A stretch of DNA of 64,000 bases from contig OX442318.1 in the NCBI GenBank assembly GCA_949358305.1, positions 15,172,517 to 15,236,516 on the forward strand. Reading direction: 5' to 3'. The translations under genes were made by a program, and so were the position numbers. This DNA comes from Strigamia acuminata (lineage: Eukaryota; Arthropoda; Chilopoda; Geophilomorpha; Linotaeniidae). Within the stretch, counting starts at the first letter, position 1; each line of letters opens with the position of its first letter. The notes under the pieces are model-generated. The model worked only from the letters and a program-made list of their open reading frames with translations. It was not told the DNA's origin and made no database searches. This document shows positions 1,186 to 48,194 of the stretch, piece by piece.

Positions 1186-1663
1186 TGTGGGGTTATTCCC
1201 GGCAATTCTGCAAACGAAATCAAAAGAAACATCAGTTGAAACGGTGCGCGAAACCGACATGCGTGCGCCATCTTTAATTCGTGAGAATATCAGGTGATAC
1301 ACGGTTAGAGGCTATTTGCACTCTCTAACAACATAGGATAAATCATTGTCAAGTTTCCAATGATTTGTCCTTTACAATCGCAAGTAAAAAACACCGACAT
1401 TAATAATCGATAAACCAAGGAAAAAGGATAAAACACAAATCGCTTTTTCAAGCAGACGACATCAGGGACGTGTGCTGTAAAGGAGAGAATATTCAACCGC
1501 GGTACATAACAAGCATTGATAAAAATCATTATCGGTTGAACACTGGATCGGGACATTAATTTACAACACACTTGTTACACATACTCGGAAATTGTGTAAC
1601 CAATAAATCACGTAACACAGGAACAAATATTTAAGCACTTCAAAATGGGTTTGCAACCCAACA
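1186..1663 (-). repeat. copia-1 3' LTR
   Basis: 478 bp, starting TGTGGGGTT and ending CCCAACA in plus-strand orientation. The coding strand is minus, so this is the 3' LTR. By eye it is identical to the copy at 7695-8172, which points to a very recent insertion. An 88-codon ORF appears in both LTR copies but is a by-product of the sequence. Confidence 0.97.
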
Positions 1664-1676
1664 AATCCCCCTTTGC
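1664..1676 (-). other. copia-1 polypurine tract
   Basis: On the minus strand this reads GCAAAGGGGGATT directly before the 3' LTR start TGTTGGG. It is the expected plus-strand primer for reverse transcription. Confidence 0.9.
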
Positions 1677-1681
1677 TTAAA

Positions 1682-6508: not shown

Positions 6509-7680
6509 CACGACGACACAATGCACAATAATAATGAAGGATGCACGAAAAAATCACTAAATTCGGAAATTATTCCGCACAAAACACTTCACTAGAATCA
6601 AATCACACAGTGCACACTTGTCACCCACCAAAAATGAAGGCGAAAAAACAATTCCACCCGTGGGCAAACCGCTATAAGAGCGGCGATCAAACCTTGACTG
6701 GTCGTTCCCCAACTCTTCCGTCCGACCTCCTAGGGTCGCGGGATCGGTTGGGTGGCCGTGAACAAGCCCAGACAAGAATACAGTGCCACGTGCCCGACTG
6801 GACGTAGGGTGGCACCGATACTAAGAGGGGACCAAAAACAAAAACTTAAAATTAACAAAGTTTCACGACAAAATGGTAAATACACTTTTGCGTTGTTAAG
6901 ATGGGCGGATTGCGGGATCCGATCGTCGCAATCGCTTCCGTCCAGCGTAGAACGTTGTTTAGACGTTATCGGTGCGCGGAAATGGGGCTGACGCGCTACC
7001 GCTCGCACACGTCCGTGCAAAGCGGGGAAAAACGATCCAAAATCGTCGTCGCGCCCGTCCGCGCCTTCGTGTAGCACTCCGGGGTGCAAAACACGGCTTT
7101 TCCGGTCAAATATTGTCGTGTACGCAGACTTATGCGTACAGAGACACTCGAAATTGGTTTCCACCGTCGACGGCGATGAAAATCCAAACAAAAATGGCCG
7201 CTGGTGAGGATTTGTTCTCCACCGGCGATCCACTGCTGATTTCCGATCGTTTTCGGTAATTTTCGCCTGATTCGGGGCGAAAATGCGTCGTATCGACGTT
7301 GATTCTCGTTGTTTCGGCGAGAATAATCGTCGTCTCGGCAAAAAGCTGGCGTCTAGGCGTGTATCGGCCCGAAAACACGTCGTTGCTACGTCGGCTGCAC
7401 TGCCGAATCCAAAATGGCCGCCGAAGAAAATTTGCTTCGTAACGGCGTGGAAAAGTGCTTATTTCGCACTGAAAATAAATATTTCGACACTGCTTACTGT
7501 CGTAATAGTCCGTTGTACTGTCCGCACACACAATCCCGACGATTTGAAAAAGTTGGCGAAGTTATTTCGCACGTCGCCGGCGATTCGTGTCTGCAACGAC
7601 CTCGGCCGACGTCCTGCACTCGTTTCGTCTCGAAATGTTCCGGAAAACTCCCAAAAACTGCTGGCCTTATCGTCGCACAG
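6509..7680 (-). other. copia-1 long 5' leader
   Basis: About 1.17 kb between the PBS and the Gag ATG, unusually long for copia. It has no convincing ORF; the 203-codon frame at 6730-7341 has no recognisable domain. A block near 6660-6860 is similar to the copia-2 leader (for example the shared plus-strand stretch around ACAAGCCCAGAC and AGTTTCACGACAA) and contains the hairpin listed separately. TTGATTCTAG, about 80 bases before the ATG, could be a splice acceptor, which is only a suggestion. Confidence 0.7.
6669..6683 (-). promoter_or_regulatory. Conserved leader hairpin, copia-1
   Basis: Perfect 5-bp stem CCGCT/AGCGG around the loop ATAAG (plus strand; CTTAT in the RNA), 160 bases upstream of the Gag ATG. 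Copia-2 and copia-3 have a hairpin at the matching place with different stem bases but kept pairing. Confidence 0.65.
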
Positions 7681-16556: not shown

Positions 16557-18146
16557 TGTGACGGTTACACTGTCATACACTTTGTTAGTATAGGACGATT
16601 ACTTCACCAATAGATGGCGCTGATGCGTTTTAGCGGTAAATTCAAATTTCGACAATTTTTGAGTGAATAAAATATAAATTACTATTTATATTTTATTCCA
16701 CTGCAACTTTAGACACTTTTAAATACTTTTGGATGTTTAAAAACTAGTTGATTTATTTGTCACATAATTCTATTGAATTATGTGCAAACTCTACACCTGG
16801 TGAAGTCACCCCCCATCACCCACTGTGAGTTGGACTCCTTTTGGATTATAGTCAAAGGGACTTAATCCAAAATGTGTCCTGCGTATCCAGTTCCTGTAGT
16901 GGACCTAGTAGAAGACTATGTCCTGAGTATCCACTTCCTATGATCTGGGATTGGATGGATTTGACTGCCCAGTGATCCCATTGGATCACTGAACAGCTAT
17001 TCTCCTCACCGAGTATATATCCCCCTACAAAACGGATATAGCTCGCTCTTGTTCTGTTTTTGTTTGATACTGATATTACTTGAGCACATATTATACTTCT
17101 CTGCGTTCCGACAATCCGTTGTAGAAATACTTTGTATTTAGTGTAAGTATCTAGAGTGGGTAGAAGACTCACAGACACACTGCCCGCCTCTTCATGCCAA
17201 CATTCCGTTGTAGAAATGTCGTAACTAGAGTGAGTAATTCACAGACACATTTAAGTGTAGTATCTAGAGTGGGGTACAACCCACAGACGCACTCCCTCCA
17301 GCTTCATGCCAACATTCCGTTGTAGAGTGCAGAATCTAGAGTGGAGTAGAATTCACAGACGCATTGGTAATGTAGAATCTAGAGTGGAGTATTTATATTT
17401 CACAGACGCATTATCAGAGTGATCGACGCGGAGTAATTTCCCGGTTACTCTCCCGCCAGCCAGGACCGAGTGGAGTAATTTCCCGGCGATGGATAACCTT
17501 TCCTGCGAGATATTTCGATTCAATTCGTTATTGGTTTGACGGAACATTTAAGTCTAACTTAGATGTTGATTGCACTCGGGGCAAAAAATAGCTCGGCGCT
17601 ATTTTAATATATTTTACTTATTTTCATAGTTTTAGTTAAGTTTGTGACTCTAAAATATCATGATTAATTCCATAGAATTAATATGAATATTTATTCTCAC
17701 ATTGTTACATCTCGCAATAATTATTGATTTCAATAATTATCTGCGATGCGATGTGTGTGACGATACAGAAAAGTCAACCGCACCTCTCGGATATAACCCA
17801 CCCAGCCTAACCATTTACACGCCTTTTAGAACCAAACCCCGGACCATTTAGAAGCCAAAGCCATTCATAGATGACATCTTTTACGTCACAGCAATAAGAC
17901 CGTTACAAATTCTTATTGCATGACTGAAGCCTTCAAATGATATTATTTCAGGGCTTTTGCCAAATAAATGTATAGTTTAACTTCTCGTCATTTTAGCCAC
18001 TTGTAGGCATAGTATTTATATAAGGTTCAAACCGAAATAAATGTTATATGTTTTGAGAAAACATCAGGTTTGCATATTTTACACTTTCACACAGATAGTT
18101 CACACTTTAGTCTAGCAATTGCTATCTCCAGAAGGTAATCGTCACA
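16557..18146 (+). repeat. gypsy-1 3' LTR (1590 bp)
   Basis: Starts TGTGACGGTT after the PPT and ends CGTCACA at the point where the BEL-1 reading frame resumes. Gypsy-2 LTR has the same ends (TGTGACGG to CCGTCACA) and shares blocks such as AGATGGCGC, AGCGGTAAATTC and TGATATTATTT. A TATATAT at 17014-17020 may be the TATA box. The LTR contains many perfect short hairpins with 4-nt loops (16665-16698, 16761-16784, 16970-16991, 17663-17682, 17717-17740) and the tandem array listed next. The 5-bp target copy on this side would be ACACT (18147-18151). Confidence 0.88.
17101..17411 (+). repeat. Tandem repeat array in the gypsy-1 LTR
   Basis: Five imperfect units of TCTAGAGTGG (17150, 17263, 17335 and 17378 exact; 17223 variant ACTAGAGTGA), each followed within about 20 bases by CACAGACGCA or CACAGACAC. 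Between them TGCCAACATTCCGTTGTAGA occurs twice, plus one variant. The array lies just downstream of the likely TATA box, so it would be in the transcribed R/U5 part. Confidence 0.75.
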
Positions 18147-21100
18147 ACACTCTTTTTTCAGATAGGAAAGTCTGTATGTCCTTGTGACCAATGAGCTTGC
18201 CCCATGATTGTAACTCCACACTACCGCGTTTAAATGTTTTGCTATTATCTGAGAATATTTTGGCAGGATAGCAAAAACGAGCTCCAAATCGTCGCATTGC
18301 TAGCAAAAACTTGGGAACAGAAAGATCTTCGGACACTTCTAAGTGCAAGCTTCTTGTCACCATGCACGTGAATAAAAGAATATAAACCTTTTTCCGTTCT
18401 TTTTTGTTGTTGCCAACATAAATGGGTCCAAGATGATCAATTCCAGTGTGTTGGAATGGAGCCGCTGGAGTTACACGTTCAGTGGGAAGGTCACCAGTAG
18501 AAGGGTTATTTCTCGCAAGTTTAGCACGTCTGCAAATTGCACACTCTCGAATCACTGTCTGAATTGTTTTTCTTCCTCTTATAATCCAAAATTGTTCACG
18601 TAAGTGATAAAGGGTTTCACTAATATCACCGTGAAGTAGTTCTAGATGTGCTTTTCTGATCAACAGTCGTGTTATCCAACTATCGTAATGCAAAATAATT
18701 GGATAGACTTCATCAAATGTCAACAAAGATTTTTTCAAACGGCTACGAAGTCTCAGTAATCCGTTTTCGTCAATAAATAGCTCGAAATTCTTTAAAGTGG
18801 AATGTTTGCTTAATTCCCTTTTGTTTTTCACATCCTCAACTTCCTCCGAAAAATGTAATTTCTGCGAAAGTTTTAGGATCTTCAGTTGGTTTGCCTCCAA
18901 CTCGAGTGGCGAGAGGGGCTCACCGCGAAGAAGTTGACTTTTCCATCTCATTATGTAGGAAAACACTCTCAAAAGTCGGTTGTAGTTGCTAAAACGTCGG
19001 AAAAATTGGTAGACAAAGTTCTCTTTAACTTGAATAGTCATAACAATTATTTTTCTCTCTTCATCGGGTGGGTTTTCCTGTAGAATTTCTTTCTTTTCCA
19101 GCTTTGAAACATCAACACCGTCCCACCAAAGTTTATTGTTCATCAATGTTTTTGAGTTGTGTGGACGGGTCAATAGGTCAGCTGGGTTGAATTCGGTTGG
19201 CACATGAGACCATTGCTCAGGCTTGGAAAAGGAAATAATTTCCTGAACACGGTTCGAGACATACGGTTTCCAAACGTTTTTGTCAGAATTAATCCAGGCG
19301 AGTGTGATAGTGGAGTCCGAGAAGTAACGAACTTCAGTGACAGGGTATCCAGGAAGAAAGTTCTCGAGCAGATATTTTGTCATTCTGACTCCAACCACTG
19401 CTGCTGTTAATTCGAGTCGAGGAAGAGTTACTTTTTTGGCCGGCGCAATACGGCATTTACTTAACAACAATGTTCTTTTGCCCTCCACGTTGACGACAAA
19501 AATCGTGCAGCCAAATGCTTTTGTGCTGGCGTCACAAAAAACTTCTAGGGTTATGTCTTGACTTGAATAAGTATTTAACCAACGTTGAACTTTTAGTTCC
19601 TTGAGTTGTTGGATGTCGAAATTCCATTCTTCAATTTCTTTTTTCTCCGAATCTAGAATCATTTCATCCCATTTTTTCGTCCGAGCCCAGATCGCTTGAA
19701 TGAGCAATTTCATTTGAAGAATAACAGGAGCCAAGAGTCCCATGGGATCGAAAATTGATGCTAAAAATGAGACCACTTCTCGCTTCGTAATCGGAATTTT
19801 TTCAATTTTCGGTATTTTAAACATTATCATGTCCTTTTCTGTGTCCCAAAGTATGCCGAGCATTTTAATGATTCCAAGACTAGAAAAGTCTTCGCCCCGC
19901 ATGTGGAATCCCTCTTTTTTCAAGTTGTCGAAGACGTCTTTACTGCAAGTCGCCCACTTCACAAGGGGAAGTTTTCCGCTGTCTAAAATCATTTTTAATC
20001 TCTCGCAATGTGTCGTTGTGTCGGCTGGGAAATCTCCTCCAGATGTTAAGTCATCCATGAAAATTCCATCATCTAGCGCATCAACTTCTTTGGCGTGTGT
20101 TTTCTCGAATTGTTTTGCATGTTTTCTAATGGTTGCGCATAGGAGGAATGGTGAGGAAATAACTCCAAAGGGCACGACGATCATTCTCAGGATCATAATG
20201 TGGTTCCATAGATTTTGCCACGAATAAGGCTGTTTAAAATAATCACGAGCCACCCACAGAAAGCGTAGAAAGTTTCTTTGAGTTGGGTTGATCATAACTT
20301 GCAGGAATGCTTGTTTAATATCTGCTATTATCGGGATGCAATAGAGACGAAATCTCACAATAACAAGAATTAAGTCAGGGTTGAGGGAAGGTCCCGGAAA
20401 TAAACAGACATTGAGGGAAAGTTTTCCCTTCTTGGATGAAGACGCGTTGAACACTATTCTAAATTTGGAAGTATCTCGATCCTCTTTTATGACGGGGTGG
20501 TGAGGTATATTATATATCCCTTTTTTGAGAAAACGCTCCTCCTTTGGGACTTCTTCCGCGTGATTTTCCTCGATGTACTGCCACATCGAGTCGTCGTAAC
20601 GTTTTTTATAGTCCTCATTTGCATCTATTCTTTTCAGCGTATTTGCAAGTTGATTCATCGCCAACTCCCAATTCGATTCTAACTCTTTTTCTTGTCCATT
20701 GAAGGGGAGCATCACTTCATAGCGTCCATCCTCCAAGCGTTTTGTCGTGGATTCGAATCGGTCTCGAATAAAGTCGGAATCCTTTTCTCCCGAATCTATC
20801 CCGATTGCCTCAAGATTCCAAAGCTTTTCCAACTTTTCGTTTATATCGACGTTGCAAGTGTTGCAACACGTGGTTAAGTCGGCTTCATCATCAAACAAAT
20901 CGATGTTTCCAGCTGCACCGGTGAGAACCCAACCAAATAAAGTGTTTATAAGGCCCAAATCCTCGTTGATTTTCTTCTTGCCGTCCTTTAGAATTTTCCA
21001 CCAAACATCCACTCCTAATAAAATGTCAATTTGGGATGTTTTGGCAGGCAATTCTTCAGCCAACTCAAGATTTAATCCTTTCACTTTTTCTATTACCGTG

Positions 21101-21546
21101 GAGTTTAGAATTCCTTGCACTTTTGGTAGGTTTTCGACCGATAGCATTGTCATTTTGATTTCTTGCGTGTCATTTCTGCTTTTCAAAGTAACGTTAAAAA
21201 CGTCATAATCCGTTGAAGCAGGAGTAGAATCATTGAAGCGTTGTGTCGTGGCCGAAATGCTGCCGCACTTTTTCAACTTAATCCTGTTTATCAACTCAGT
21301 TGTTATGAAAGATCGGTGGCTGCCTGGATCTATCATTCCTCGGATGTTGTGGGATCCTCCATTTTTGGTTTTGAGGTTCGCAGTGAATATCATTAATTGA
21401 AGAGTCGCGGAGATCGCGCACGAGACGTGTGTTGTCACTTGTGGCTCCTTGGGCTTCTCGACAACGCTTGATGAATTCTTCACATCCGACTTCTTGCAAA
21501 TGGTGGAGTGGTGTCTTCCGCCACAATGTTTGCAGGAAAACTTCAC
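18147..21546 (-). CDS. pol: BEL-1 protease-RT-RNase H-integrase (truncated by gypsy-1)
   Basis: Minus-strand BEL/Pao polyprotein, about 97 per cent similar to BEL-2 by eye. It starts at the deletion junction with a zinc knuckle (CKHCGGRHHSTIC). Then come the A17-type protease with the DPGS motif (GMIDPGSHRSFIT), the spacer LLGVDVWWKILKDGKKK, and RT with ADIKQAFLQVMI and the catalytic FMDD (DDGIFMDDLTSGGD). RNase H (FCDASTKAFG, SDSTITLAWI), the integrase zinc site (HLELLHGD, CAICRRAK) and two catalytic Asp (TGIDHLGP, FSDNSKTF) follow. The catalytic Glu is lost because gypsy-1 interrupts the gene after FLSEKRV. The rest should lie left of the window. Confidence 0.93.
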
Positions 21547-21625
21547 TGAGTAGCGCTTCCCATCTTGTCTCCATAATTTCGAGTTGTTCTGGAGTGAGCA
21601 TGTTTTGCACGGAAGGATCTGCCAT
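21547..21625 (-). pseudogene. gag: BEL-1 gag remnant
   Basis: The ATG at 21625 starts ADPSVQNMLTPEQLEIMETR, almost the same as BEL-2 Gag, but after about 26 codons the sequence jumps to the second zinc knuckle (junction 21546/21547). Compared with BEL-2 about 1.15 kb of gag is missing (capsid domain and first knuckle), and the join changes frame. The copy therefore cannot make its own particle and would need Gag from another copy. Confidence 0.85.
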
Positions 21626-24056
21626 GTTTTCTCTCCTCTCACAAATTCACGGCTGCAAATTGCGAAAAAGAAGATAAAATCTCGTTTGACAAAAAACACT
21701 TCGCTTTCAATTTTTAAAAGAATAAAATTTTCAATTTTATCCCCCAAAAAATACACAGAATTTTTCAACGTTTAATTGCCCAAATGACAAAAAATCAAAT
21801 GAAAATGCACAAAAATATCGAGTGTTTTAACAATCAAGGATGCTAAAACACACGAGCGACCTTGATCACGTATGAAAAACGTGACTCAAAAAGTCCTACA
21901 CAAGTTTGAAATATTTTCGGCGATTCGTATGGAACGAATTTTGCACGAAAACCACTATCAAATTTTAGCGTTAATAACTGACAGCCCTTGCAATGAGAGA
22001 CTGACCAGTAACTAGCTTCAAAAAATCTAAATCTCCCCTGGTTATGCCAGTTATATGGAGATGCATGCATAAAATTAAAGAAAACACTAAAACGATTTGC
22101 AATAAAATTCACTTTTACTAAATTTCCCTTAAGATTAGCATATGAAACAGCAATAACACCAAAAAGAATACCCAAAACAATACCCTCATGCAAACAAAAC
22201 CTCCAAAATAAATGCACTGAATGATAAAACACAAGAAAAGCAATAAATCCAGGGGCGAATCGACTTCTCAGCACAGCGCGTTGTGTTATCCAAATCCAAG
22301 ATGGCGACCGTAGAATCCCGCTGATGACACACAAAAGTTCGCACTCGACGCAAGAGCTGTCCCAGTCGTGACTGTTGTCACGTTGAACGGCGACACTCGT
22401 AGCAGACGACGAATCACGAACGTATTGTTCTCCCGTCGCAACAAACACGCGAAGAAACGTATCCAAAACGAACCGGAAAAACTCACAGATTTCAGACGGA
22501 ATCCTGGTCACGGCACCACAGAATCGAATTCGATGTTGCGGTCTGTCAACACCGAATTGAGAGGAATAGGGTTGGGGCTATTTGAAATTTCCGCCTCTAA
22601 AAACTTAAGTGATCGTATTGTTAAATTAGTACGAAAACCGCGCTGAGAACACATAATCCGCACTGAAAACTATTGATGAATGCATGGAACATTGATGGAA
22701 ACACTGTTGATAAATATCCAATGGGGTGCTGAATCAATTGCTAATCCAGGGAAAGGCTTAACTACTCACACCACATTGAAAACTATGGTTGAAAATAGAA
22801 AACACGGGAGTAAACAAAAAACAACTTGTTTATTAAAGAGTTAGCTGAGAACTGAATAAAATACACTGATTACATTGGTTCCTGAGGAACCGCACATGCG
22901 CAGTGCCCGTTATGGCACACGCCAAGCCGATAGCGGCGAAATACAAAAACAAAAGAAACTCCGTTGTCATAGCAACGGAGGAAACGAAATCACAGCAAAG
23001 TTGAAGTTACATAAAAACTGCACGAAATAAAGATCGTGATATACTAAAATGATCACAAGAATACCAGGAAAATTTTATCTAATCACAACAATAAGATCTG
23101 AAAAGTAAAACAATGCAAACGGAGCGAAAACAATGATCATCAAGCAGACGATCGAGACAGCCAATCGGCGTCAAGAAAAATGATGTAATCAAAACATTTG
23201 AATTCCGAACGGAATAAAAATGCAAAAATAGCAAAGAATACAGGTGAAAACACTTCGAAATGAAATAATAAATAAGAATAATAGTATAATAAATTCAAAG
23301 CAAACGATTACATCATCAAAATTGCCGATAAATCAACATGGCGTCCAACGGTCACCGAATCGGCGCAAAACAACACAGTTTGAAAATACAAGTTTAAGAT
23401 TTGAATAAAAACACCTGACAATGTTGAAATAAATATAGGAAATATTATTTCCTGAACAAAATCACACTATTTAATCAAAACTACACTGAAATGGATCGTA
23501 ACACGAACGAAACGAACACCATCGGCCGCGCCCATATGGTGGCCGACGACGAACGTTCGTAACGTCGAAACGAAAACTCTATGACAAAATCTGAGCACAC
23601 CAAACGAAAGAGCACACCGGAATTAGTACAAAACAATACTAAAACACAACAAAACTACCTTTAAAAGGTGAAAACGAAACGTTAGAAGTTCTGAAATAAC
23701 AAGACTAGGAATTGAAAAATGACGTCACGCGTATAGCGTAACTGTGCTGCATTTCGACGAATGCACTCAAAAATGCCGTACAACTAGAAAAATGCATTAG
23801 AATTGATAAAATAAAACAAAATACGCAATAAAATACCGAAAATATGTGACAATAAATTGAATTATCCCATTTCACAACACTAGAACACTAAATAACACTG
23901 AAAAACATTTTAATAAGTCAAAATTCCTGTAAAGTGAAAAATATCAGTTAATTATGAAAAATAAAACACTAAAGGAAAATTAAACAAATCAAAGCAATTA
24001 GTAATATTTATTGACACAATCTCAGCACAACAATTCTTCTACGCTGTCTTGCAACA
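21626..24056 (-). repeat. BEL-1 5' LTR and leader
   Basis: Non-coding, shared with 37522-39822 (BEL-2). The outer end at 24056 reads GCAACA in plus orientation, so the element starts TGTTGCAAGACAG. I could not fix the inner LTR end or PBS; TGCTAAAACACACG at 21841 is a candidate. Compared with BEL-2 there are 131 extra bases at about 22161-22291, and the block 22650-23880 is far more diverged than either end. A 222-codon frame here (21843-22511) is broken in BEL-2 by the indel and is not taken as a gene. Confidence 0.75.
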
Positions 24057-26479: not shown

Positions 26480-28194
26480 TTTGTCCCTAAACTTCACATA
26501 TCAATAGTAATAAACATTGAAACGATCCCAGCGATGCACTGCGCGTTCTTCCATTTGACTTGGTCGGAAATAATGAGCGATTTGCTTTCGCATATCATAT
26601 TTCCTCACAGATCCGTCGTCAAATTCATCCCTTGGTCCTTGGAAACCGGAATACCGTTCCTTCACAATGAACATGACTCAGGGTAGGAAGTTCTCAAGTT
26701 ATCTCGATCAAATTATGAAGAATCGTTAATGGCGGCGATTCGAATAACGCGCGCGCCTACGGAGGAAATCATATACTCCCGAAGAATTAACAAAATACGA
26801 TGTTTATTCGTACATAATCAAATCTTAACTGTTTTTACAATATGTAAACTCGTGCCACGGTCTCTAATAACAATAAACGTCAACACGAGAGCATTATTAA
26901 TAAAATAGATAACAATATATCAAAAACCCAATGTCTCAAAACGGCCTCCGTACAACAAAACAAGAACGGCCGTTGAGAGTTCAAATTACACCAAAAAACT
27001 TGTCTTTAATATCGAAAATCGTGCATATAAATAACCCAAACCCTAATGATTATTTAATACAGCGAAAATGAATTGAAAGAAGGTGCAAACCCTCAAAAAT
27101 AAAACCTCAACGAACATTGAATGGAAATCTCGAAAACCCGAAAACTGCTACATTTCGCCACGAGACGTCGCCTAATCAATGTCAACGGAAACTTAATCTA
27201 ATCAATCGCAATTCTCGAATCCCGGACATGGCCACTGTCTTAATACGAATAAAGAATCCAAATAATGCATTCTCGACACTCGTTGCGCGCATTTAATAAA
27301 TCCCTTGCATTGCACGGAATTAAATTCCCATCTCCCGCACTAAACCCAATGCTATTCGCGGGCGAGTTAAAAAACCCGAACTCGACCGAAAAGATGCACG
27401 ATGCGCCAAATCACGTGACACCCGACCAAACGACTGAATCTTATCCGAAACACAAAACAACGAAAAAGTAATCAATTAATCAATTCGAAATCGTATCAAA
27501 ATCATACAGTAAAAACTTAAGTCGAACAAATCTCAATCTGAATCAAATTAAATCTCAATCGAAAACGAGGCTCGTTGCACCGCCTTTCTCCTAATGGCGG
27601 TTCTAGCCGATCAACGCTCCTTAGCGACCAACGAAGCTTCGCCTCTGCCCAACGCCGAATCATCGGGTTTTAATCCACGGTAAATTACATCTAAAGCTAT
27701 TTATTTAATCAACGGAGTGGTTTCTAACCTAATGTATTTAAATCTACAGTTTCAAAACAACATCTTTCCGAGTGCGCTCCGACCAGACCAAACCGCTCGA
27801 TAAGCAACAACGACTTCGCTTTTCGCTTTGAAACCCATCCTCGCCGTTATCGCCTTCAATTAGCGACCAAATGCCTGCCTGTACCGTGTCAGATAAGTCC
27901 TTGAAAACTCTATTCAAACTAACCGGAACCGAAATTAAAAAACCTTCAATTCTCTTTGTAGATAAATCCGATGCCCGACTTTGTCGCTAGATGGCGCGAC
28001 ACGCCCGAATCTCAAACTACTGGCGAAAATTCTATGACTTAAGATTCTGCTGCGATATATTCCGACCAATAATCAAAGATCCGAATAGCTTACGACAAAG
28101 GAAAAAACAACGTGAATAATCTATCGACTCAGGTAAAAAACCGAAGTTCCTTTTTCAACTTATCATTATTTCTGTTGCGTTTCTGCTCGCAACA
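26480..28194 (+). repeat. Segment X: long LTR-like non-coding sequence in BEL-2 pol
   Basis: 1.7 kb without coding capacity. Its right end at 28194 (CTCGCAACA) abuts BEL-2 pol cleanly. The last 417 bp recur inverted at 47778-48194, and the last 138 bp again at 47067-47204. The end forms a small hairpin TGTTGCG...CGCAACA. A TATAAATA at about 27031 on the plus strand may be a promoter. I read X as a long LTR of an unseen element, with copia-2 inserted at 26479/26480; its family and true orientation are not settled. Confidence 0.6.
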
Positions 28195-31100
28195 TCTGGG
28201 TTGAATTCGGTTGGCACATGAGACCATTGCTCAGGCTTGGAAAAGGAAATAATTTCCTGAACACGGTTCGAGACATACGGTTTCCAAACGTTCTTGTCAG
28301 AATTAATCCAGGCGAGTGTGATAGTGGAGTCCGAGTAGTAACGAACTTCAGTGACAGGGTATCCAGGAAGAAAGTTCTCGAGCAGATATTTTGTCATTCT
28401 GACTCCAACCACTGCTGCTGTTAATTCGAGTCGAGGAAGAGTTACTTTTTTGGCTGGCGCAATACGGCATTTACTTAACAACAATGTTCTTTTGCCCTCC
28501 ACGTTGACGACAAAAATCGTGCAGCCAACTGCTTTTGTGCTGGCGTCACAAAACACTTCTAGGGTTATGTCTTGACTTGAATAAGTATTTAACCAACGTT
28601 GAACTTTTAGTTCCTTGAGTTGTTGGATGTCGAAATTCCATTCTTCAATTTCTTTTTTCTCCGAATCAAGAATCTTTTCATCCCATTTTTTCGTCCGAGC
28701 CCAGATCGCTTGAATGAGCAATTTCATTTGAAGAATCACAGGAGCCAAGAGTCCCATGGGATCGAAAATTGATGCTAAAAATGAGACAACTTCTCGCTTC
28801 GTAATCGGAATTTTTTCAATTTTCGGTATTTTAAACATTATCATGTCCTTTTCTGTGTCCCAAAGTATGCCGAGCATTTTAATGATTCCAAGACTAGAAA
28901 ACTCTTCGCCCCGCATGTGGAATCCATCTTTTTTCAAGTTCTCGAAGACGTCTTTACTGCAAGTCGCCCACTTCACAAGGGAAAGTTTTCCGCTGTCTAA
29001 AATCATTTTTAATCTCTCGCAATGTGTCGTCGTGTCGGCTGGAAAATCTCCTCCAGATGTTAAGTCATCCATGAAAATTCCATCATCTAGCGCATCAACT
29101 TCTTTGGCGTGTGTTTTCTCAAATTGTTTTGCATGTTTTCGAATGGTTGCGCATAGGAGGAATGGTGAGGAAATAACACCAAAGGGCACGACGATCATCC
29201 TCAGGATCATAATGTGGTTCCATAGGTTTTGCCACGAATAAGGCTGTTTAAAATAATCACGAGCCACCCACAGAAAGCGTAAAAAGTTTCTTTGAGTTGG
29301 GTTGATCATAACTTGCAGGAATGCTTGTTTAATATCTGCTATTATCGGGATGCAATAGAGACGAAATCTCACAATAACAAGAATTAAGTCAGGGTTGAGG
29401 GAAGGTCCCGGAAATAAACAGTCATTGAGGGAACGTTTTCCCTTCTTGGATGAAGACGCTATGAACACTACTCTAAATTTAGAAGTATCCCGATCCTCTT
29501 TTATGACTGGGTGGTGAGGTATATTATATATCCCCTTCTTGAGAAAACGTTCCTCCTTTGGGACTTCCTCCGCGTGATTTTCCTCAATGTATTGCCACAT
29601 TGAGTCGTCGTAACGTTTTTTATAGTCCTCATTTGCATCTATTCTTTTCAGCGTATTTGCAAGTTGATTCATCGCCAACTCCCAATTCGATTCTAACTCT
29701 TTTTCCTGTCCATTGAAGGGGAGCATCACTTCATAGCGTCCATCCTCCAAACGTTTTGTCGTGGATTCGAATCGGTCTCGAATAAAGTCGGAATCCTTTT
29801 CTCCCGAATCTATCCCGATTGCCTCCAGATTCCAAAGCTTGTCCAACTTCTCATTTATATCAACGTTGCAAGTGTTGCAACACGTGGTTAAGTCGGCTTC
29901 ATCATCAAACAAATCGATGTTTCCAGCTGCACCGGTGAGAACCCAGCCAAATAAAGTGTTTATAAGGCCCAAATCCTCGTTGATTTTCTTCTTGCCGTCC
30001 TTTAGAATTTTCCACCAAACATCCACTCCTAATAAAATGTCAATTTGGGATGTTTTGGCAGGCAATTCTTCAGCCAACTCAAGATTTAATCCTTTCACTT
30101 TTTCTATTACCGTGGAGTTTAGAATTCCTTGCACTTTTGGTAGGTTTTCGACCGATAGCATGGTCATTTTGATTTCTTGCGTGTCATTTCTGCTTTTCAA
30201 AGTAACGTTAAAAACGTCATAATCCGTTGCAGCAGGAGTAGAATCATTGAAGCGTTGTGTCGTGGCCGAAATGCTGCCGCACTTTTTCAACTTGATCCTG
30301 TTTATCAACTCAGTTGTTATGAAAGATCGGTGGCTGCCTGGATCTATCATTCCTCGGATGTTGTGGGATCCTCCATTTTTGGTTTTGAGGTCCGCAGTGA
30401 ATATCATTAATTGAAGAGTCGCGGAGATCGCGCACGAGACGTGTGTTGTCACTTGTGGCTCCTTGGGCTTCTCGACAACGCTTGATGAATTCTTCACATC
30501 CGACTTCTTGCAAATGGTGGAGTGGTGTCTTCCGCCACAATGTTTGCAGGAAAACTTCACTTTACAGTCCCCGACGCGATGGCCAGTTCTGAAACAATTG
30601 AAGCAAAGCCTGTTTTTCTTGATCAATTCGATTTTTGCGTTGATCTCAATTTTTTTTTTGCAAGAACCATTAAGGTGATCCTCTTCGCAAAAAATGCACT
30701 TGATGCTCTTCGTATTAGCAGGTTTGCTCTCTTGTTTCGTTTCCTGCTTGACTTTGGCACTGGTTGATTGCTTGGAATCCTGTGTCGCAGCGCAAGTCGT
30801 CATGGAACCTTTTTGCTTGCTTTTTTCGGCTTCAGTCTTTTCTTTCTTCACTTTTTCAGAATGAGATGAATTGTCAGTTCTTTCCGCCATAGCTACTTCT
30901 TTCAAGAAAAAGTCAAGTAGTGTCATAATGTTCTTGTTTTGAATTCCATGCACTTGATAAAAACGCAATGCCATCTGAGTTGGAAATTTGCTGATAATAT
31001 CCGGCATGAGAAAAGCACCTGAAGTTTGTATTGGTATTTTCAACTGCTCAAGGAGTCTGACGGTGGAAGAGATTTTGGTTAAATTTGTTCTTAACGCTTT

Positions 31101-31334
31101 AGTTGGATAGACACTTGTAACAATTTTCATTTCTCGAATTGATCTGATGAGGGCAGTTTGCTGTGCGTCCTCATCCCCGTAGTTTCTCTCCAACTCTTCT
31201 CGAGCCAAATGGTAGGATTCTTCGATCAAGGGAAAAGTTGAAATCAAAGTGGCTGCTTCGCCAACACACATTGTCTGTAGATATTGAAGCTTTTCCACGT
31301 CGCTTAAGTCTGGGTCCTTATGTACTGAAGTTTC
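28195..31334 (-). CDS. gag-pol: BEL-2 Gag C-terminus, protease, RT and RNase H
   Basis: Minus-strand frame from the gypsy-3 edge (SVHKDPDLSDVEK) to the X edge (HVPTEFNP). It contains the BEL Gag capsid-like domain (DUF1759 type), zinc knuckles (CIFCEEDHLNGSC, CFNCFRTGHRVGDC, CKHCGGRHHSTIC), the A17-like protease DPGS, the RT with FMDD (DDGIFMDDLTSGGD), and RNase H with FCDASTKAVG and YSDSTITLAWI. The integrase lies beyond X, outside the window. I see no stop inside. The N-terminal 467 bp of gag continue at 37055-37521 on the other side of gypsy-3. The apparent ATG at 31361 lies in the gypsy-3 LTR and is not the true start. Confidence 0.94.
31330..31334. repeat. Target-site duplication of gypsy-3 (left)
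   Basis: GTTTC, repeated at 37055-37059 on the other side of gypsy-3. It fixes the element ends. Confidence 0.95.
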
Positions 31335-31539
31335 TGATAAATCCTTATAAATAAAGCACAACTCTCAATTTAGATAGGAAGAATAAGCTCAACTTCTTCA
31401 TTTATTGGCGTGTCGCTCACGACTGAATTCCAGAATACATGTGTAACCATGGCTAGTTTACACAACAAACACCAGCCATGGCCTATTGTTACAACCATCA
31501 TATTACGTTTAATAACTAATTTATCATCAGAATCTAACA
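31335..31539 (-). repeat. gypsy-3 3' LTR
   Basis: 205 bp, TGATAAATCC to TCTAACA, apparently identical to 36850-37054. It holds an inverted repeat CCATGGCT/AGCCATGG (31447-31454 and 31474-31481). Short LTRs of this size are common in Mag-like gypsy elements. Confidence 0.95.
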
Positions 31540-42661: not shown

Positions 42662-43995
42662 TGTTTCTGGCAAGGTCGCAGGCGACAACCAAGCCAGAAG
42701 GAGGGGCGGCAATACTTGACTGCTGCTTGGCACAAATTGATACACAGAAGTTGGCCAAAGACCTGAAGAAATGCAAAGACTGGACTTGAACTTGCTGCTT
42801 CACATGATGATCTGCCACTGGTGAGTTCAAGGAGGAGGAAGGAGGATTTCTCTACTCACTACACATTGATTTCTGGTTGTATAGAGAAATAAGACTTGGA
42901 GAGAAAATAAACACATCCATTTTAATTTCTAAATCCAATAACAAGACTACTCCAATTGAAATTACGAGGATTTAACAAAGAAGTCACACTTTAACAATAA
43001 TAAGAAACAACAAGTGTAACTATCTCCACATTGTATAAGGACATTTGCACTTAAAGTTACAGAAGTCTCTAAGTGCTTGTAAAGAGAAACAAGTACTGCT
43101 GGCACAATAAAACTACCGTAGAAGTTAATATTTGAAAACACATAAGCCTAACAGCAAGTATTTGACATTAAATGCAAAAGTATACATTAACAACAGTCTC
43201 TAAACACAATGCTCATTGAGAACTAAATTATCCACTCTAAAACACACTGAACAACTCATAGAATAGAGAAAAGAATAAGTAAAGACATTTTAGACCAATG
43301 AGCTGGCACTTTTACAATAAGTGCAGAAGTTAAGTTAAAAATCAACACAGATAAATCTCAAACTTAACACTTTTACATTGCATAATAATTAAGTGATTAA
43401 TCATTAATCAGAACCCACAAAAACTCTTTGGGATTAAACCTTTTCTCCTCTCTTTACAGATACAAGTAGACCACTCCCACAGTAATGGCCGACAAAGTAA
43501 ACAGAGATCACTTGCAGGAGGATAAAAAAGCTTGAAATTAGCTCACTAGACAGGCTACACACAATCTAAGTTAACAAAACGCTTAATTGGTTAGTAATAT
43601 ACAGAAAACTCACAGAAATTGATTTAAACAGCTTAAAACTGATAATAACATACATTTCTCATTCTAGTACACTTTTGCTGTCTGAGAGCATCACTACACC
43701 TTGTCACTACATTGACAGTAGTGGACTGGAAACAGGAAAACACTTGGAAACATCAAAACATGCATAACACAGGTATACAAGATAGAAAATAAATTCTAAG
43801 TGGACAAATAACTAATGTAAAACTCTTTTCTTCCCAGATTTATCCGATCAGATCAACCAGTACTGAGAAATTCACTCAAACTAACTCAAAGAAGACTTAT
43901 ATTCAGATAAGTGTCTAATTAAATTCCCAATCTAAGATAAATATTAAAAACCCTTTTTAATAATTCCAGATGACTAATTTTTAAGACGTTTAGCA
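42662..43995 (-). repeat. Putative 3' LTR of the BEL-TK element
   Basis: 1334 bp without an ORF, bounded by TGTTTCTGGC on the left, where BEL-3 breaks off, and TTTAGCA on the right, next to a polypurine-like TAAAGGGAAGC (minus strand, 43996-44006). It lies at the expected distance after the thymidine kinase ORF on the minus strand. No second copy is in the window, so the LTR identity is inferred. Confidence 0.5.
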
Positions 43996-44006
43996 GCTTC
44001 CCTTTA
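43996..44006 (-). other. Putative polypurine tract of BEL-TK
   Basis: Minus-strand TAAAGGGAAGC directly before the putative LTR start TGCTAAACG. It is next to a 14-bp perfect palindrome TGTTGCTAGCAACA. Confidence 0.45.
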
Positions 44007-44055
44007 TGTTGCTAGCAACATAGATTGCCGGCGAAAAGAAAGTGCGAACAACCCA

Positions 44056-44613
44056 TCATTTAGTTTGATTACTTCTGGTCTTTGATGATAATATTTGGGA
44101 GACCTCTTTCACCTTTTTGTATTTCACTCTGGATGGCAAGATTCTTTGACGGATCAAATATGGTATCCACGGAGGTATTCTTCGGTTGACAATCATACAA
44201 CTAAGTCGAATAATTCCGTTGATGATTTTCCTTTTCGTCTCTACGGACTCCATGGGCTTTGAGAAACATACTCGACAGGTTGGTTTGTATTTGTCGATCC
44301 CTCCTATCACCTTGACTCTGGTTTCGTGCGAAATTCGTCTTGAAAATTCAGCTTTATTTTCGCAAAAATAACATTTTGCTTGTAGTTTCACAACAGACTC
44401 GGCTAGTGGAACTAACTTGGATATCTGATCAAATGGCTTCCTCTTGAAGTCGACGTCTAATGCGGCGACTATTACCTTTTTCTTTTGCTCAGCCATTTCA
44501 TTTGAAAAGGTAAAAATGTCGGGAAAAAACTGTCCTTCATCAATTCCGATTGTCTTCATTAATTTCGTTTTTTCCACAGCATTGGTTAGGCTACTGGTCG
44601 CGATTGCTTCTCG
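44056..44613 (-). pseudogene. Thymidine kinase, C-terminal part after in-frame TGA
   Basis: Same reading frame as the upstream Gag-protease-kinase ORF, separated only by TGA 44614-44616. It holds the type II thymidine kinase core: IGIDEGQFFPDI (the DEGQFF box), VIVAALDVDFKRKPF, LVPLAESVVKL, then two CxxC pairs (CYFC and CRVC) that form the structural zinc site in TK1, with the lasso-like VIGGIDKYKPTC between. Numbered from the GTG at 44577 the cysteines are 69, 72, 101 and 104. After CRVCFSKP come about 65 residues unlike TK1. If TGA is read through or is a recent mutation, the two parts make a kinase domain close to the usual TK1 length (about 234 residues). Confidence 0.9.
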
Positions 44614-47061
44614 TCAATGACCGTCGTGGGTCACGACTTCGGTTTTACTGTAACGTTCGTCATTGGAGTGCTTAATGAGCAAGGACGACGTCTTCTCCCC
44701 TTTTTCTAAAATCTTCAATAACTTGGTCGTTTTCCCGGCATACATTGGACCAAGGATAAGGTGAATTCCTCTTTGATTGTTCGATAAGACATTTTTCTTT
44801 TTCCAGAAATTGAAAATCAATTCTCCGGTCCATCTCAAGATTGCACACAATTTGGGTAAACTGGGCACTTGGTTTGCTTTCTCTCTCAGTGACTCCGACT
44901 GATTTCGCCCTCGTAATTCCGGCTTCATGTCCGAGCTTGGAGTTCTGTTGACCAAACCTCCATCCTTGAACGACTTTTTCGTTTTTTGGAGGGTGGTGTC
45001 CAGTTCCTCTTTCTCCAGACCACTGGAGAGGCTCGCGGCAAAACAAGAAGGTGTGACGTCTGTCTGTTTATTCACACCGGGTTTGCCATTCATGTTGGAC
45101 AGTGATTTCGGAATTAATTGGACTATTTTGTTTTCGTCATTTTCAGGTTGATTTGAGATCACTTCTTCTTTGGACTCGACCGCCATGCAAAAAATGTTGC
45201 ACGCTGCCATGTTTTCTTCAAGCGGGTTGTTTGGTTTCAGTCGACCGTTTAGAATCCACCCAAAAATTGTCTGCATTAATCCCAACTCGTCGTTGATTTT
45301 TCGGCTTCCACCTTGACAAATCTTCCACCATGCGTTGCTTCCTAATAAGACGTCAATGTTTTCCGATTCTGACGGATGTATCTCAGCCATCTCAAGTCCG
45401 AGTGATTGGACCTGCTTTATGGCTTCTGCTCCAATTATCTCTTTGACTTTCGGGAGCGTGTCGGTTTCTAATGCAAGGATTGATGTCTTTTCCGTTCCGT
45501 GTCTTGATTGCAGTTCGAATCTAAAGACATCATGTGTCGTCGGAACTGGCTTTTTGTTGAGCAGACACTGTGTCATCGTGTGTAGTGTCTCGATCTTTTG
45601 CATCCGGAATTTATTTACTAGTCTCTTCGTGACGTAGGAGCGATGGCTTCCTGGATCTAGTAATCCGCGGACGGGGTACATGTCTCCATTTTTCTTCACA
45701 AAAAGGGCAGTGAAGACCATCAGTTGAATCTCCACCGACTCGGTAAGCGTTACATTAGTAGACACGTTTTCTTCTTTCGGTGTAATCGCTTTTTCTTTGT
45801 TGTTTTTGTTGCAGATCGATGTGTGATGTCTTCCACCACACAAGCGACAACAAAACTTCACGGTACATTCTTTGGCTGTGTGGTTATATCTCAGGCAGTT
45901 GAAACAAAGTCGTTTCTTCTTTACTATCTCGATCTTCGCTGGTACGTCGAGATCCGCATCACAATTTGCGTGTGCGTGATCACCATCACAATAAGCGCAG
46001 GCGGGTTTGCGGTTTGGATTCGACTTGGAATTCATGCTTAATTTTCCATTCTCAGAAGTCACGAATGAGGACATTGTTCCAGTTGGTCTTTCTCTTGTTT
46101 CCTTTGAAGTTTTCTCAAATTTTTCTGACTTCTTCAGATGAGCGCGCTTAAGGAGAACGCTTTCTTCTGATAATTCAGCCAATTGAATCTCGGTTGCAAC
46201 GAAGTTTAGAAGTATGTTGACATCCTCGACCTTTCCTCGATTTTCCCGGTAAAAACGTTGGGAGATCTCCGGCGGAAATTTTCTAAGTAGTTCTGGAATA
46301 AGGTACGTTCCAGTAGTGTCAACTGACACAGACAGTTGCGCCATGGTCCGGACAGCAGATGCCAATGACGTGAATAGAGCTTTGAGTGGCTCGATTGGGT
46401 AGAGATCAAAAACGGGTTTCGACTCCCTAATCATCTTTGAAATCGCATTTCTCTGCGTGTTTTCAGATTTGAATAGACTCTCCAATGTATTTTTCGCTAA
46501 TGGGTAGGCGTCATCAGTTATTGGGTACGACTTGATTGCGGATTCTGCAGCCCCAGTGCAGCATGACCTCAAATATATAAGCTTTTCCACGTTCGAAAGC
46601 TCCGTGTTCTGGTCAACTGCTGAGTCAAATAAGTTTGCGAATCCTCTATATTCAGTTGCATCGCCACTAAATTTAGAAATGTCCGTTTTTGGCAATCTAG
46701 TGTTTCTCCTGGATGAAGCGGATGTTTGGTTTAAACTGGAATTCTGTCCCGGATGGGACCCAAATTGCCCTGCCATTTTTCCAGACACTTTGGCTCTTTG
46801 TTTCAATAAATTAACTCTGGTTCTAATGTCTTCAATTCGTTGAAGCCCTGCTAAATAATCCTCTCTTTTTGACTCGTCTTTAAGAGCTTTCAATTTGTCG
46901 GCGAGATCACTCAATTGCTGGTCAACCGTTATTTGCATGGCTTCCAGCTCTCCTCCGTCTAGAATGTTGACTGAAGATCCCAGCAGATCCTCGGCTCCTT
47001 GAGCCTTTGCTTTCCAAATGACCTCCTTTTCCTCGAGATCAGCAGCGGATAATGTAGCCAT
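44614..47061 (-). CDS. BEL-TK Gag-protease-thymidine kinase fusion
   Basis: 815 codons from the ATG at 47061. The N-terminal part is BEL/Pao Gag (ATLSAADLEEKEVIWKAKAQ; SKFSGDATEYRGFANLFDSA; DUF1759-like), followed by three zinc knuckles (CAYCDGDHAHANC, CFNCLRYNHTAKEC, CRLCGGRHHTSIC), an A17-like protease (VRGLLDPGSHRSYVT) and the linker AWWKICQGGSRKINDELGLM. At the point where RT should follow there is instead a linker of about 150 residues and, from residue 764 (about 44772), a thymidine kinase: RGIHLILGPMYAGKTTKLL with the P-loop GPMYAGKT at 771-778, LLIKHSNDERYS and VVTHDGH. TGA follows. No RT, RNase H or integrase is present, so the element must depend on another BEL element. Type II TK phosphorylates thymidine to dTMP (salvage). 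Confidence 0.93.
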   Translation of the reverse strand: MATLSAADLEEKEVIWKAKAQGAEDLLGSSVNILDGGELEAMQITVDQQLSDLADKLKALKDESKREDYLAGLQRIEDIRTRVNLLKQRAKVSGKMAGQFGSHPGQNSSLNQTSASSRRNTRLPKTDISKFSGDATEYRGFANLFDSAVDQNTELSNVEKLIYLRSCCTGAAESAIKSYPITDDAYPLAKNTLESLFKSENTQRNAISKMIRESKPVFDLYPIEPLKALFTSLASAVRTMAQLSVSVDTTGTYLIPELLRKFPPEISQRFYRENRGKVEDVNILLNFVATEIQLAELSEESVLLKRAHLKKSEKFEKTSKETRERPTGTMSSFVTSENGKLSMNSKSNPNRKPACAYCDGDHAHANCDADLDVPAKIEIVKKKRLCFNCLRYNHTAKECTVKFCCRLCGGRHHTSICNKNNKEKAITPKEENVSTNVTLTESVEIQLMVFTALFVKKNGDMYPVRGLLDPGSHRSYVTKRLVNKFRMQKIETLHTMTQCLLNKKPVPTTHDVFRFELQSRHGTEKTSILALETDTLPKVKEIIGAEAIKQVQSLGLEMAEIHPSESENIDVLLGSNAWWKICQGGSRKINDELGLMQTIFGWILNGRLKPNNPLEENMAACNIFCMAVESKEEVISNQPENDENKIVQLIPKSLSNMNGKPGVNKQTDVTPSCFAASLSSGLEKEELDTTLQKTKKSFKDGGLVNRTPSSDMKPELRGRNQSESLREKANQVPSLPKLCAILRWTGELIFNFWKKKNVLSNNQRGIHLILGPMYAGKTTKLLKILEKGEKTSSLLIKHSNDERYSKTEVVTHDGH

Positions 47062-47066
47062 AATCC

Positions 47067-47204
47067 TGTTGCGAGCAGAAACGCAACAGAAATAATGATA
47101 AGTTGAAAAAGGAGCTTCGGTTTTTTACCTGAGTCGATGGATTATTCACGTTGTTTTTTCCTTTGTCGTAAGCTATTCGGATCTTTGATTATTGGTCGGA
47201 ATAT
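47067..47204 (-). repeat. 138-bp terminal fragment of segment X
   Basis: Matches the terminal 138 bp of X (28057-28194 inverted, and 47778-47915) with one visible difference (GAGC against GAAC near 47113). It begins five bases upstream of the BEL-TK ATG and changes to BEL pol with a 2-base overlap (AT). Confidence 0.85.
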
Positions 47205-47777
47205 TTTCGATCCCATGGGACTCTTGGCTCCTGTGATTCTTCAAATGAAATTGCTCATTCAAGCGATCTGGGCTCGGACGAAAAAATGGGATGAAAAGAT
47301 TCTTGATTCGGAGAAAAAAGAAATTGAAGAATGGAATTTCGACATCCAACAACTCAAGGAACTAAAAGTTCAACGTTGGTTAAATACTTATTCAAGTCAA
47401 GACATAACCCTAGAAGTGTTTTGTGACGCCAGCACAAAAGCATTTGGCTGCACGATTTTTGTCGTCAACGTGGAGGGCAAAAGAACATTGTTGTTAAGTA
47501 AATGCCGTATTGCGCCAGCCAAAAAAGTAACTCTTCCTCGACTCGAATTAACAGCAGCAGTGGTTGGAGTCAGAATGACAAAATATCTGCTCGAGAACTT
47601 TCTTCCTGGATACCCTGTCACTGAAGTTCGTTACTACTCGGACTCCACTATCACACTCGCCTGGATTAATTCTGACAAGAACGTTTGGAAACCGTATGTC
47701 TCGAACCGTGTTCAGGAAATTATTTCCTTTTCCAAGCCTGAGCAATGGTCTCATGTGCCAACCGAATTCAACCCAGA
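47203..47777 (+). pseudogene. pol: Detached BEL-2-type pol fragment
   Basis: 575 bp coding FDPMGLLAPVILQ through HVPTEFNP (RT end and RNase H), almost the same as BEL-2 28195-28769 inverted (one residue differs: KAFG against KAVG). It ends at the same base as BEL-2 does and is followed by the same X junction. It is far closer to BEL-2 than BEL-3 is, so it is not part of BEL-3. Confidence 0.92.
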
Positions 47778-48194
47778 TGTTGCGAGCAGAAACGCAACAG
47801 AAATAATGATAAGTTGAAAAAGGAACTTCGGTTTTTTACCTGAGTCGATGGATTATTCACGTTGTTTTTTCCTTTGTCGTAAGCTATTCGGATCTTTGAT
47901 TATTGGTCGGAATATATCGCAGCAGAATCTTAAGTCATAGAATTTTCGCCAGTAGTTTGAGATTCGGGCGTGTCGCGCCATCTAGCGACAAAGTCGGGCA
48001 TCGGATTTATCTACAAAGAGAATTGAAGGTTTTTAATTTCGGTTTCGGTTAGTTGAATAGAGTTTTCAAGGACTTATCTGACACGGTACAGGCAGGCATT
48101 TGGTCGCTAATTGAAGGTGATAACGGCGAGGATGGGTTTCAAAGCGAAAAGCGAAGTCGTTGTTGCTTATCGAGCGGTTTGGTCTGGTCGGAGC
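47778..48194 (-). repeat. Second copy of segment X end
   Basis: 417 bp matching 27778-28194 inverted. Similarity stops exactly where the element E LTR begins (48195). The uninterrupted left copy continues past GGTCGGAGC, so E inserted into this X copy with a possible target site GGAGC. Confidence 0.88.

Follow-up and report, generated by a model that had tools for sequence, protein, structure and literature searches.

Can a retrotransposon carry a thymidine kinase (TK) in the place of its reverse transcriptase (RT) and still spread? The question is raised by a 64,000-nucleotide stretch of the chilopod Strigamia acuminata genome (hereafter, the window; contig OX442318.1, positions 15,172,517 to 15,236,516), in which a single frame, read by translation on the minus strand from 47061 to 44056, joins a BEL/Pao-type Gag and protease (PR) to a type II TK. 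The original prediction was right about this structure, since Gag, zinc knuckles, the DPGS protease motif, and TK are all present, but it took the kinase to be intact and overlooked an in-frame stop codon, the placement of the frame on the minus strand, and its setting among satellites. Comparison across the genome (237.5 Mb in 157 contigs, the window lying on contig C6) established that Gag-PR-TK is an abundant, young, and recently moving family of long terminal repeat (LTR) elements, and that its kinase is under purifying selection.

The window copy itself is a dead, 5′-truncated member of this larger family and belongs to its subfamily B. The Pfam TK profile PF00265 matches it in two open pieces (37.5 and 126.7 bits) on either side of a TGA codon that falls between the P-loop and the DEGQFF box. 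The copy is 96.8% identical over 4404 bp, 3′ LTR included, to the complete copy at locus L016, and its likeness to complete copies starts at 47064, beside the ATG, with no 5′ LTR or leader next to it. Foreign BEL DNA stands there instead: copies of a 138-nt direct repeat at 47067-47204 and 47778-47915 enclose a BEL pol fragment on the plus strand (Peptidase_A17). It is the TGA in the kinase, the lack of an adjoining 5′ LTR or leader, and this foreign DNA that mark the copy as a damaged representative of a larger family.

The intact members are numerous. Genome frames were searched with PF00265 (best 150 of 205 candidates scored; frame classes counted by hand twice) and with the subfamily B protease part (best 150 of 1023 candidates scored; counted by hand). 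The first search yielded 84 uninterrupted Gag-PR-TK frames, of 995 (32 frames), 1002 (5), 1009 (13), or 1013 codons (34), and the second yielded 103 protease matches from the TK-element lineages at ≥64% identity, 85 of them in frames of ≥991 codons. Twenty 10-kb loci around TK matches were read, ten of which (L009–L018) proved to be Gag-PR-TK elements. In subfamily A, exemplified by L010, 956-bp LTRs flank a frame at 2158–5145, with the 3′ LTR beginning at 5239; subfamily B (L013, L016) has LTRs of about 1358 bp, and L017 and L018 have shorter ones (715–724 bp, with 100% identical pairs). The paired LTRs are 100% identical in eight of the ten A and B loci; in L009, a tandem chain, they are 97.3% identical, and L014 has no 5′ LTR within the stretch read. 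Target duplications, judged by eye, accompany all seven copies with both flanks readable (4 bp in six, 5 bp in one). Complete elements measure about 5.7–6.6 kb, and LTR searches found pairs mostly about 5.2 kb apart (best 40 of 101 and best 40 of 117 candidates), with one pair on contig C127 spaced 6.3 kb among the matches listed. Tandem LTR-internal-LTR-internal-LTR chains occur both at C5:14359996-14371361 and in L009, which suggests recombination in arrays.

These counts dispose of two objections that had been foreseen, namely that only one copy exists and that the join is an assembly error. The notion of a misassembled or chance join, for which no support was found and which could at most appeal to the window copy, alone in being rearranged, is already refuted by 84 fused frames on many contigs, by paired identical LTRs, and by target duplications; its probability is negligible, because a fusion recurring in so many uninterrupted frames, with the same junction at dozens of loci, is neither chance nor misassembly. 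A kinase-only insertion can likewise be dismissed, since the LTRs bound the whole Gag-PR-TK unit and the target duplications flank the LTRs.

The element proteins contain a BEL-type Gag domain (PF03564, 57-64 bits), followed by a putative A17-like protease that shows the DPGS motif and aligns to autonomous BEL proteases. Subfamilies A and B are 52% identical along nearly the entire protein, with the same linker in register, and all subfamilies end in a tail of about 40-65 residues behind the kinase (VKRKLING...NRRLPPW...) that matches no known domain. A profile search of the element proteins P0001, P0003, and P0004 detected neither RT nor RNase H nor integrase, and the 3′ LTR begins no more than about 0.1 kb beyond the TK stop, leaving no space for such domains. 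The kinase thus does stand in place of RT, as had been proposed, and the family is a non-autonomous BEL/Pao derivative rather than an autonomous element.

By family and motifs, the element kinase is a type II (TK1-like) thymidine kinase and a predicted enzyme. The TK parts of the elements match PF00265 over its full length at 182–185 bits (curated cut-off, 20.6) and align to human TK1 with an E-value of 6e-43. When loci L001–L018 were scanned with the P-loop motif GPM[FY][SA]GKTT, 17 of 18 matched, amounting to 15 distinct copies (L004 duplicates L009, and L006 duplicates L010) and a further one that the end of L009 cuts short. Every one of the 15 keeps DEGQFF, both cysteine pairs, the (T/S)(K/R)RIS loop, and the GG-x-(D/E)-(K/R)-Y loop; their P-loops reflect the choice of rows, since the scan itself required one. 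L002, of subfamily A′, differs in one P-loop letter (GKTS) and retains the remaining motifs. Among these, the DEGQFF glutamate is presumably catalytic, and we take the four cysteines to bind zinc and the loop to contact substrate.

Such conservation bears on whether the kinase might be retained not as an enzyme but as a tetramer-forming, C-terminal structural or nucleic-acid-binding module of the Gag polyprotein. That alternative draws on the encoding of TK in a single frame with Gag and on a sister element, L055 (described below), whose very different C-terminal part indicates that the position behind PR can accommodate unrelated modules. A purely structural role accords poorly, however, with the retention of DEGQFF, the zinc cysteines, the substrate-loop Thr/Ser, and (V/I)GGx(D/E)(K/R)Y in the 15 scan-matched copies, or with a kinase dN/dS of 0.12, and is regarded as unlikely.

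Ratios of nonsynonymous to synonymous divergence (dN/dS) were obtained by Nei–Gojobori counts. Between A′ and A, which are separated by a dS of about 1, the TK gives 0.117 (proportions of synonymous and nonsynonymous differences, pS 0.56 and pN 0.11), compared with 0.066 for the protease, 0.386 for the linker, and 0.339 for the C-terminal tail. Two pairs within B give 0.18 and 0.14 for the TK, about 0.62 for the linker, and about 1 for the tail; two pairs within A give 0.11 and 0.04 for the TK, and the TK of the dead window copy gives 0.27 and 0.22. The TK values thus range over 0.04–0.27 across six closer pairs. The comparison of A with B is saturated at synonymous sites (pS 0.79), with pN of 0.29 for TK, 0.29 for Gag, 0.21 for PR, and 0.46 for the linker. 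The kinase is therefore under purifying selection, as anticipated, at a constraint about equal to that of Gag, and the tail is unconstrained between B copies. Gene capture by LTR elements is common, and most of the listed copies are young and near-identical, as would be the case if a recently captured TK had spread by chance as the neutral hitch-hiker of a successful non-autonomous element. For such a passenger a dN/dS near 1 is expected, and this explanation is already contradicted by the observed values: the same TK occurs in A, A′, and B despite the depth of their divergence, and its protein is constrained. Neutral carriage is accordingly held to be highly improbable.

The element TKs share their motifs with animal cytosolic TK1, and their identity to the best-listed TK1-like proteins is 43–50%; they differ from animal TK1 in being fused to Gag-PR, in being multicopy, and in a 2-residue deletion after the first helix. 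The A and B kinases share 57% identity, compared with no more than 53% to the best-listed other TKs; the TK is thus not a recent copy of a host cDNA. They form one clade in FastTree (support 0.972, 153 rows) and in IQ-TREE (51 rows; approximate likelihood-ratio test, aLRT, 99.8, bootstrap 100; 99/94 under a mixture model), and a single capture of a TK1-type mRNA before the A/A′/B split would be the simplest account. Uptake of either a TK cDNA or a viral TK had been suggested; the TK1-like character of the kinase agrees with the former, and the latter was rejected on similarity, since viral contigs reach at most 37% identity (best 80 of 156 relatives). A bacterial donor was likewise rejected, bacterial genomes reaching at most 41% (best 80 of 412).

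Descent from the host's own TK line is possible. Stand-alone TKs of the same genome are 49–53% identical to B and 46% to A (one class listed), and the trees disagree on their placement. FastTree joins element and stand-alone TKs (0.927, 153 rows), whereas IQ-TREE (51 rows) groups the element TKs with other TK1s and leaves the stand-alone TKs outside (aLRT 96.1, bootstrap 97); in the approximately unbiased test under the mixture model, with long branches present, the clade of element and stand-alone TKs is 8.3 log units worse (p 0.268) and is neither rejected nor demonstrated. The 2-residue gap favours a common line: it occurs in all 12 TK rows of the genome (4 element and 8 stand-alone, several of them near-duplicates) and is absent from 120 of 121 outside non-viral, non-bacterial rows, the remaining row being without that region, as well as from all 10 bacterial rows and from 9 of the 10 viral ones.

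The stand-alone kinases form several repeated classes. One, of 190 codons, occurs in at least 40 places in the genome at near-equal score. Together with these places, loci L021 (4468-5025), L022, and L023 belong to a dispersed repeat of 6-7 kb or more, 98.9-99.5% identical among the three copies compared, whose only recognised gene is an intact TK of 185-190 codons; part of the repeat is inverted between copies and no LTRs were seen in it. It is possibly a second TK-carrying mobile unit. Two further multicopy classes, with a 181-codon core and with 221 codons (L019, L020, L025, L027, L028, L024, L026), sit in repeats rich in simple sequence. A genome with so many TK copies, given the 190-codon frames and the other stand-alone classes, might have an unusual TK complement in which the repeats supply thymidine kinase to the host. 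Against the host as beneficiary, the 84 fused frames, LTR-bounded where read and lying in satellite-rich regions, have the look of element amplification, selection across long-diverged subfamilies fits selection at the level of the element, and the stand-alone TKs could serve the host; a host benefit appears improbable.

The young identical LTRs and target duplications of the family, together with its lack of RT and integrase, suggest that it would be mobilised in trans, with the RT and integrase of an autonomous sister lineage, a helper named by kinship. The nearest Pol-bearing frames show 42–47% protease identity (frames of 1768, about 1751, and 1755 codons among them; best 150 of 1023). A Gag-PR tree was built from the TK elements, two autonomous elements, c8 (1768-codon frame) and c4 (1751-codon frame), L055, 19 other BELs of the genome, and 11 outside proteins. 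It supports A plus B at 100, their union with L055 at 99, and the further union with c4 and c8 at 100 (midpoint root). The autonomous c8 and c4 resemble the TK elements in Gag-PR order, the DPGS motif, an LTR start of TGTTGC, and the motif CG(C/G)CGGCAA, which stands directly ahead of the 3′ LTR in A, B, c8, and c4; they differ in having a long Pol frame where the TK elements carry TK without RT, RNase H, or integrase. The LTR start of c8, TGTTGCTAGCAAC, is the same as that of B, and c8 has a 4-bp target duplication (by eye). The common dispersed BELs were rejected as nearest helpers, with only 24–29% Gag-PR identity (19 loci). The sister L055 (contig C14, reverse strand, 933-3623 of the reverse complement) carries Gag-PR and then a hydrophobic, membrane-anchor-like tail instead of TK, of which no second occurrence was found in the genome. 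Within the window, minus-strand frames at 18142-21768 and 28155-31361 contain members of the BEL lineage that lacks TK but is akin to the TK elements (43% protease identity).

The TK elements and their Pol-bearing relatives share a genomic neighbourhood. By hand count among the best 150 of 1023 protease matches, 78 of the 103 from the TK lineages lie inside eight interval regions (C1 64.2–66.5, C4 0.4, C5 12.2–15.5, C6 15.2, C8 6.8–7.6, C9 0.3–1.1, C11 0.1–0.6, and C13 7.9–10.3 Mb); small contigs hold 21 more, and the last 4, all short frames, are elsewhere. When the single C14 row is set aside, 46 non-TK rows remain: 28 fall inside the intervals, or 38 if a margin of 0.5 Mb is allowed, 2 are on small contigs, and 6 are in other places, 4 of these at 0.7 Mb. 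Since the TK elements themselves served to define the intervals, these figures are a comparison, not a test. The general BEL pol family has no match inside the intervals, 2 within 50 kb of the C8 interval, and 5 on small contigs (best 150 of 1068). A 140-bp satellite directly adjoins 7 of 14 distinct TK copies with a readable 3′ flank, as well as c4; no match to it was found next to c8. Matches to the satellite lie at C13 7.99–9.37 Mb and C9 0.75–0.79 Mb (best 40 of 186 candidates), a sample that misses other satellite-bearing contigs, as L011, L015, and L017 show. The TK-element regions look pericentromeric or centromeric. By eye, the insertions in L011, L012, and L015 all sit no more than a few bases from one GTTGA site of the satellite, which hints at a preferred target.

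Taken together, the findings are best explained, with a probability of about 0.65, by a non-autonomous BEL/Pao lineage that is mobilised in trans and whose particle-borne TK raises dTMP and dTTP (thymidine mono- and triphosphate) for cDNA synthesis. The Gag-PR-TK polyprotein would assemble particles around its own RNA, and RT and integrase would come in trans from the autonomous c8/c4-like sister lineage. Being part of the same polyprotein as Gag, the TK would be carried into the particle, where it would phosphorylate thymidine and so keep dTTP from limiting cDNA synthesis in cells whose salvage activity is low, a benefit that would parallel that of retroviral dUTPase by another route.

Several observations weigh against this explanation. 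Regarding mobilisation, the support consists of kinship, location, and short shared end motifs, c8 and c4 are only 36–39% identical to the TK elements over Gag-PR, the primer-site regions show only a loose resemblance between A/B and c8/c4, and some close autonomous frames (4 of 46), two with the top protease identity of 47%, lie outside the shared regions. Regarding the proteins, the protease profiles PF05585 and PF13650 match A weakly and below cut-off (E 9e-4 and 2e-3) and do not match B, and the first half of the TK is missing from one A′-like copy, L050. B also carries Ser at the position of human TK1 Thr163; the best match in the Protein Data Bank is entry 2wvj, which we take to be a Thr163Ser mutant of human TK1. 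Regarding the benefit, TK alone gives dTMP, and dTTP requires two further kinases; moreover, a particle-private role has to be assumed, since a diffusible TK would help rivals too.

The coordinates of the window copy are collected in Table 1. Elsewhere in the window, at 1682-6526 on the minus strand, a Copia polyprotein carries a methyl-CpG-binding domain (PF01429) between integrase and RT (E 4e-10, over the cut-off).

Table 1. Features of the Gag-PR-TK copy in the 64,000-nucleotide window
Feature	Position	Strand	Basis or remark
3′ LTR, about 1360 bp	42662..44022	-	alignment to L016; 96.2% identical to the L016 LTR
Motif TTTTCGCCGGCAATCTA just upstream of the 3′ LTR	44023..44040	-	core CGSCGGCAA common to A and autonomous c8, c4
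Gag-PR-TK frame, 1002 codons with stop, one in-frame TGA	44056..47061	-	translation; subfamily B
C-terminal tail behind the kinase, without known domain	44059..44262	-	in subfamilies A, A′, B
Type II thymidine kinase domain (P-loop GPMYAGKT, DEGQFF, CYFC, CRVC)	44263..44766	-	PF00265, two pieces
In-frame TGA breaking the kinase	44614..44616	-	translation
Retropepsin-like protease region, approximate limits	45244..45771	-	translation
DPGS motif of the protease	45646-45657	-	also in autonomous relatives
Three zinc-knuckle-like motifs (CAYC, CFNC, CRLC with H/C partners)	45811..45999	-	read in translation; numbering from protein alignment
Gag domain PF03564 (DUF1759)	46240..46671	-	63.2 bits, residues 131-274
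Foreign DNA at the truncated 5′ end	47065..47915	.	138-nt direct repeat enclosing BEL pol fragment

Parts of this arrangement have counterparts in other systems. Plant TR-GAG elements are, like the TK elements, non-autonomous LTR elements with Gag and without Pol, and they spread in trans, as the TK elements would; we know of no accessory metabolic enzyme in them. Poxviruses and other large DNA viruses carry a TK for growth in cells with low dTTP; theirs is parasite-borne too, but it is a separate gene and, at no more than the 37% identity given above, a more distant sequence. The dUTPase of retroviruses is a precedent for a particle-borne nucleotide enzyme (PMC4531489), and LTR elements of bdelloid rotifers carry dut between PR and RT (PMC5408684). 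Both resemble the TK elements in having a nucleotide-pool enzyme in the polyprotein, beside PR or near it, but their enzyme is a hydrolase, not a kinase, and, unlike the TK elements, they retain their own RT and integrase (PMC5408684, PMC4531489).

No retroelement with a TK was found by title or abstract in the open literature, subscription papers and Repbase being outside the scope of that search. Among 473 candidates from elsewhere, Gag-PR-TK proteins were sought and a single TK protein of matching length was found, of 605 aa in Trebouxia; none of 63 Gag-PR relatives contained PF00265 (7993 candidates scored, in a database that may hold few animal transposon proteins). The family represents a non-autonomous BEL element that bears an accessory, metabolic enzyme in place of Pol.

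A broader picture may tentatively be drawn, although we consider it more doubtful than the account above: a division of labour among transposons in centromere-like satellite arrays, in which autonomous BELs would give RT and integrase, the particles of their TK-bearing relatives would bring private thymidine salvage, and the slot after the protease would act as a cargo bay, holding TK in A, A′, and B and a membrane-anchor-like tail in L055. A parasite of a parasite would thereby contribute nucleotides of its own and not merely take enzymes from its helper. The family would then represent a BEL clade that lives in satellites and whose cargo can be exchanged. The supply of deoxynucleoside triphosphates sets a limit to reverse transcription, and hosts exploit this limit through SAMHD1. 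An element TK kept for as long as the synonymous saturation between subfamilies indicates would, if the proposed role is true, be natural evidence that dTTP limits retrotransposition in host cells, and the TK elements would offer a testable system for such limitation.

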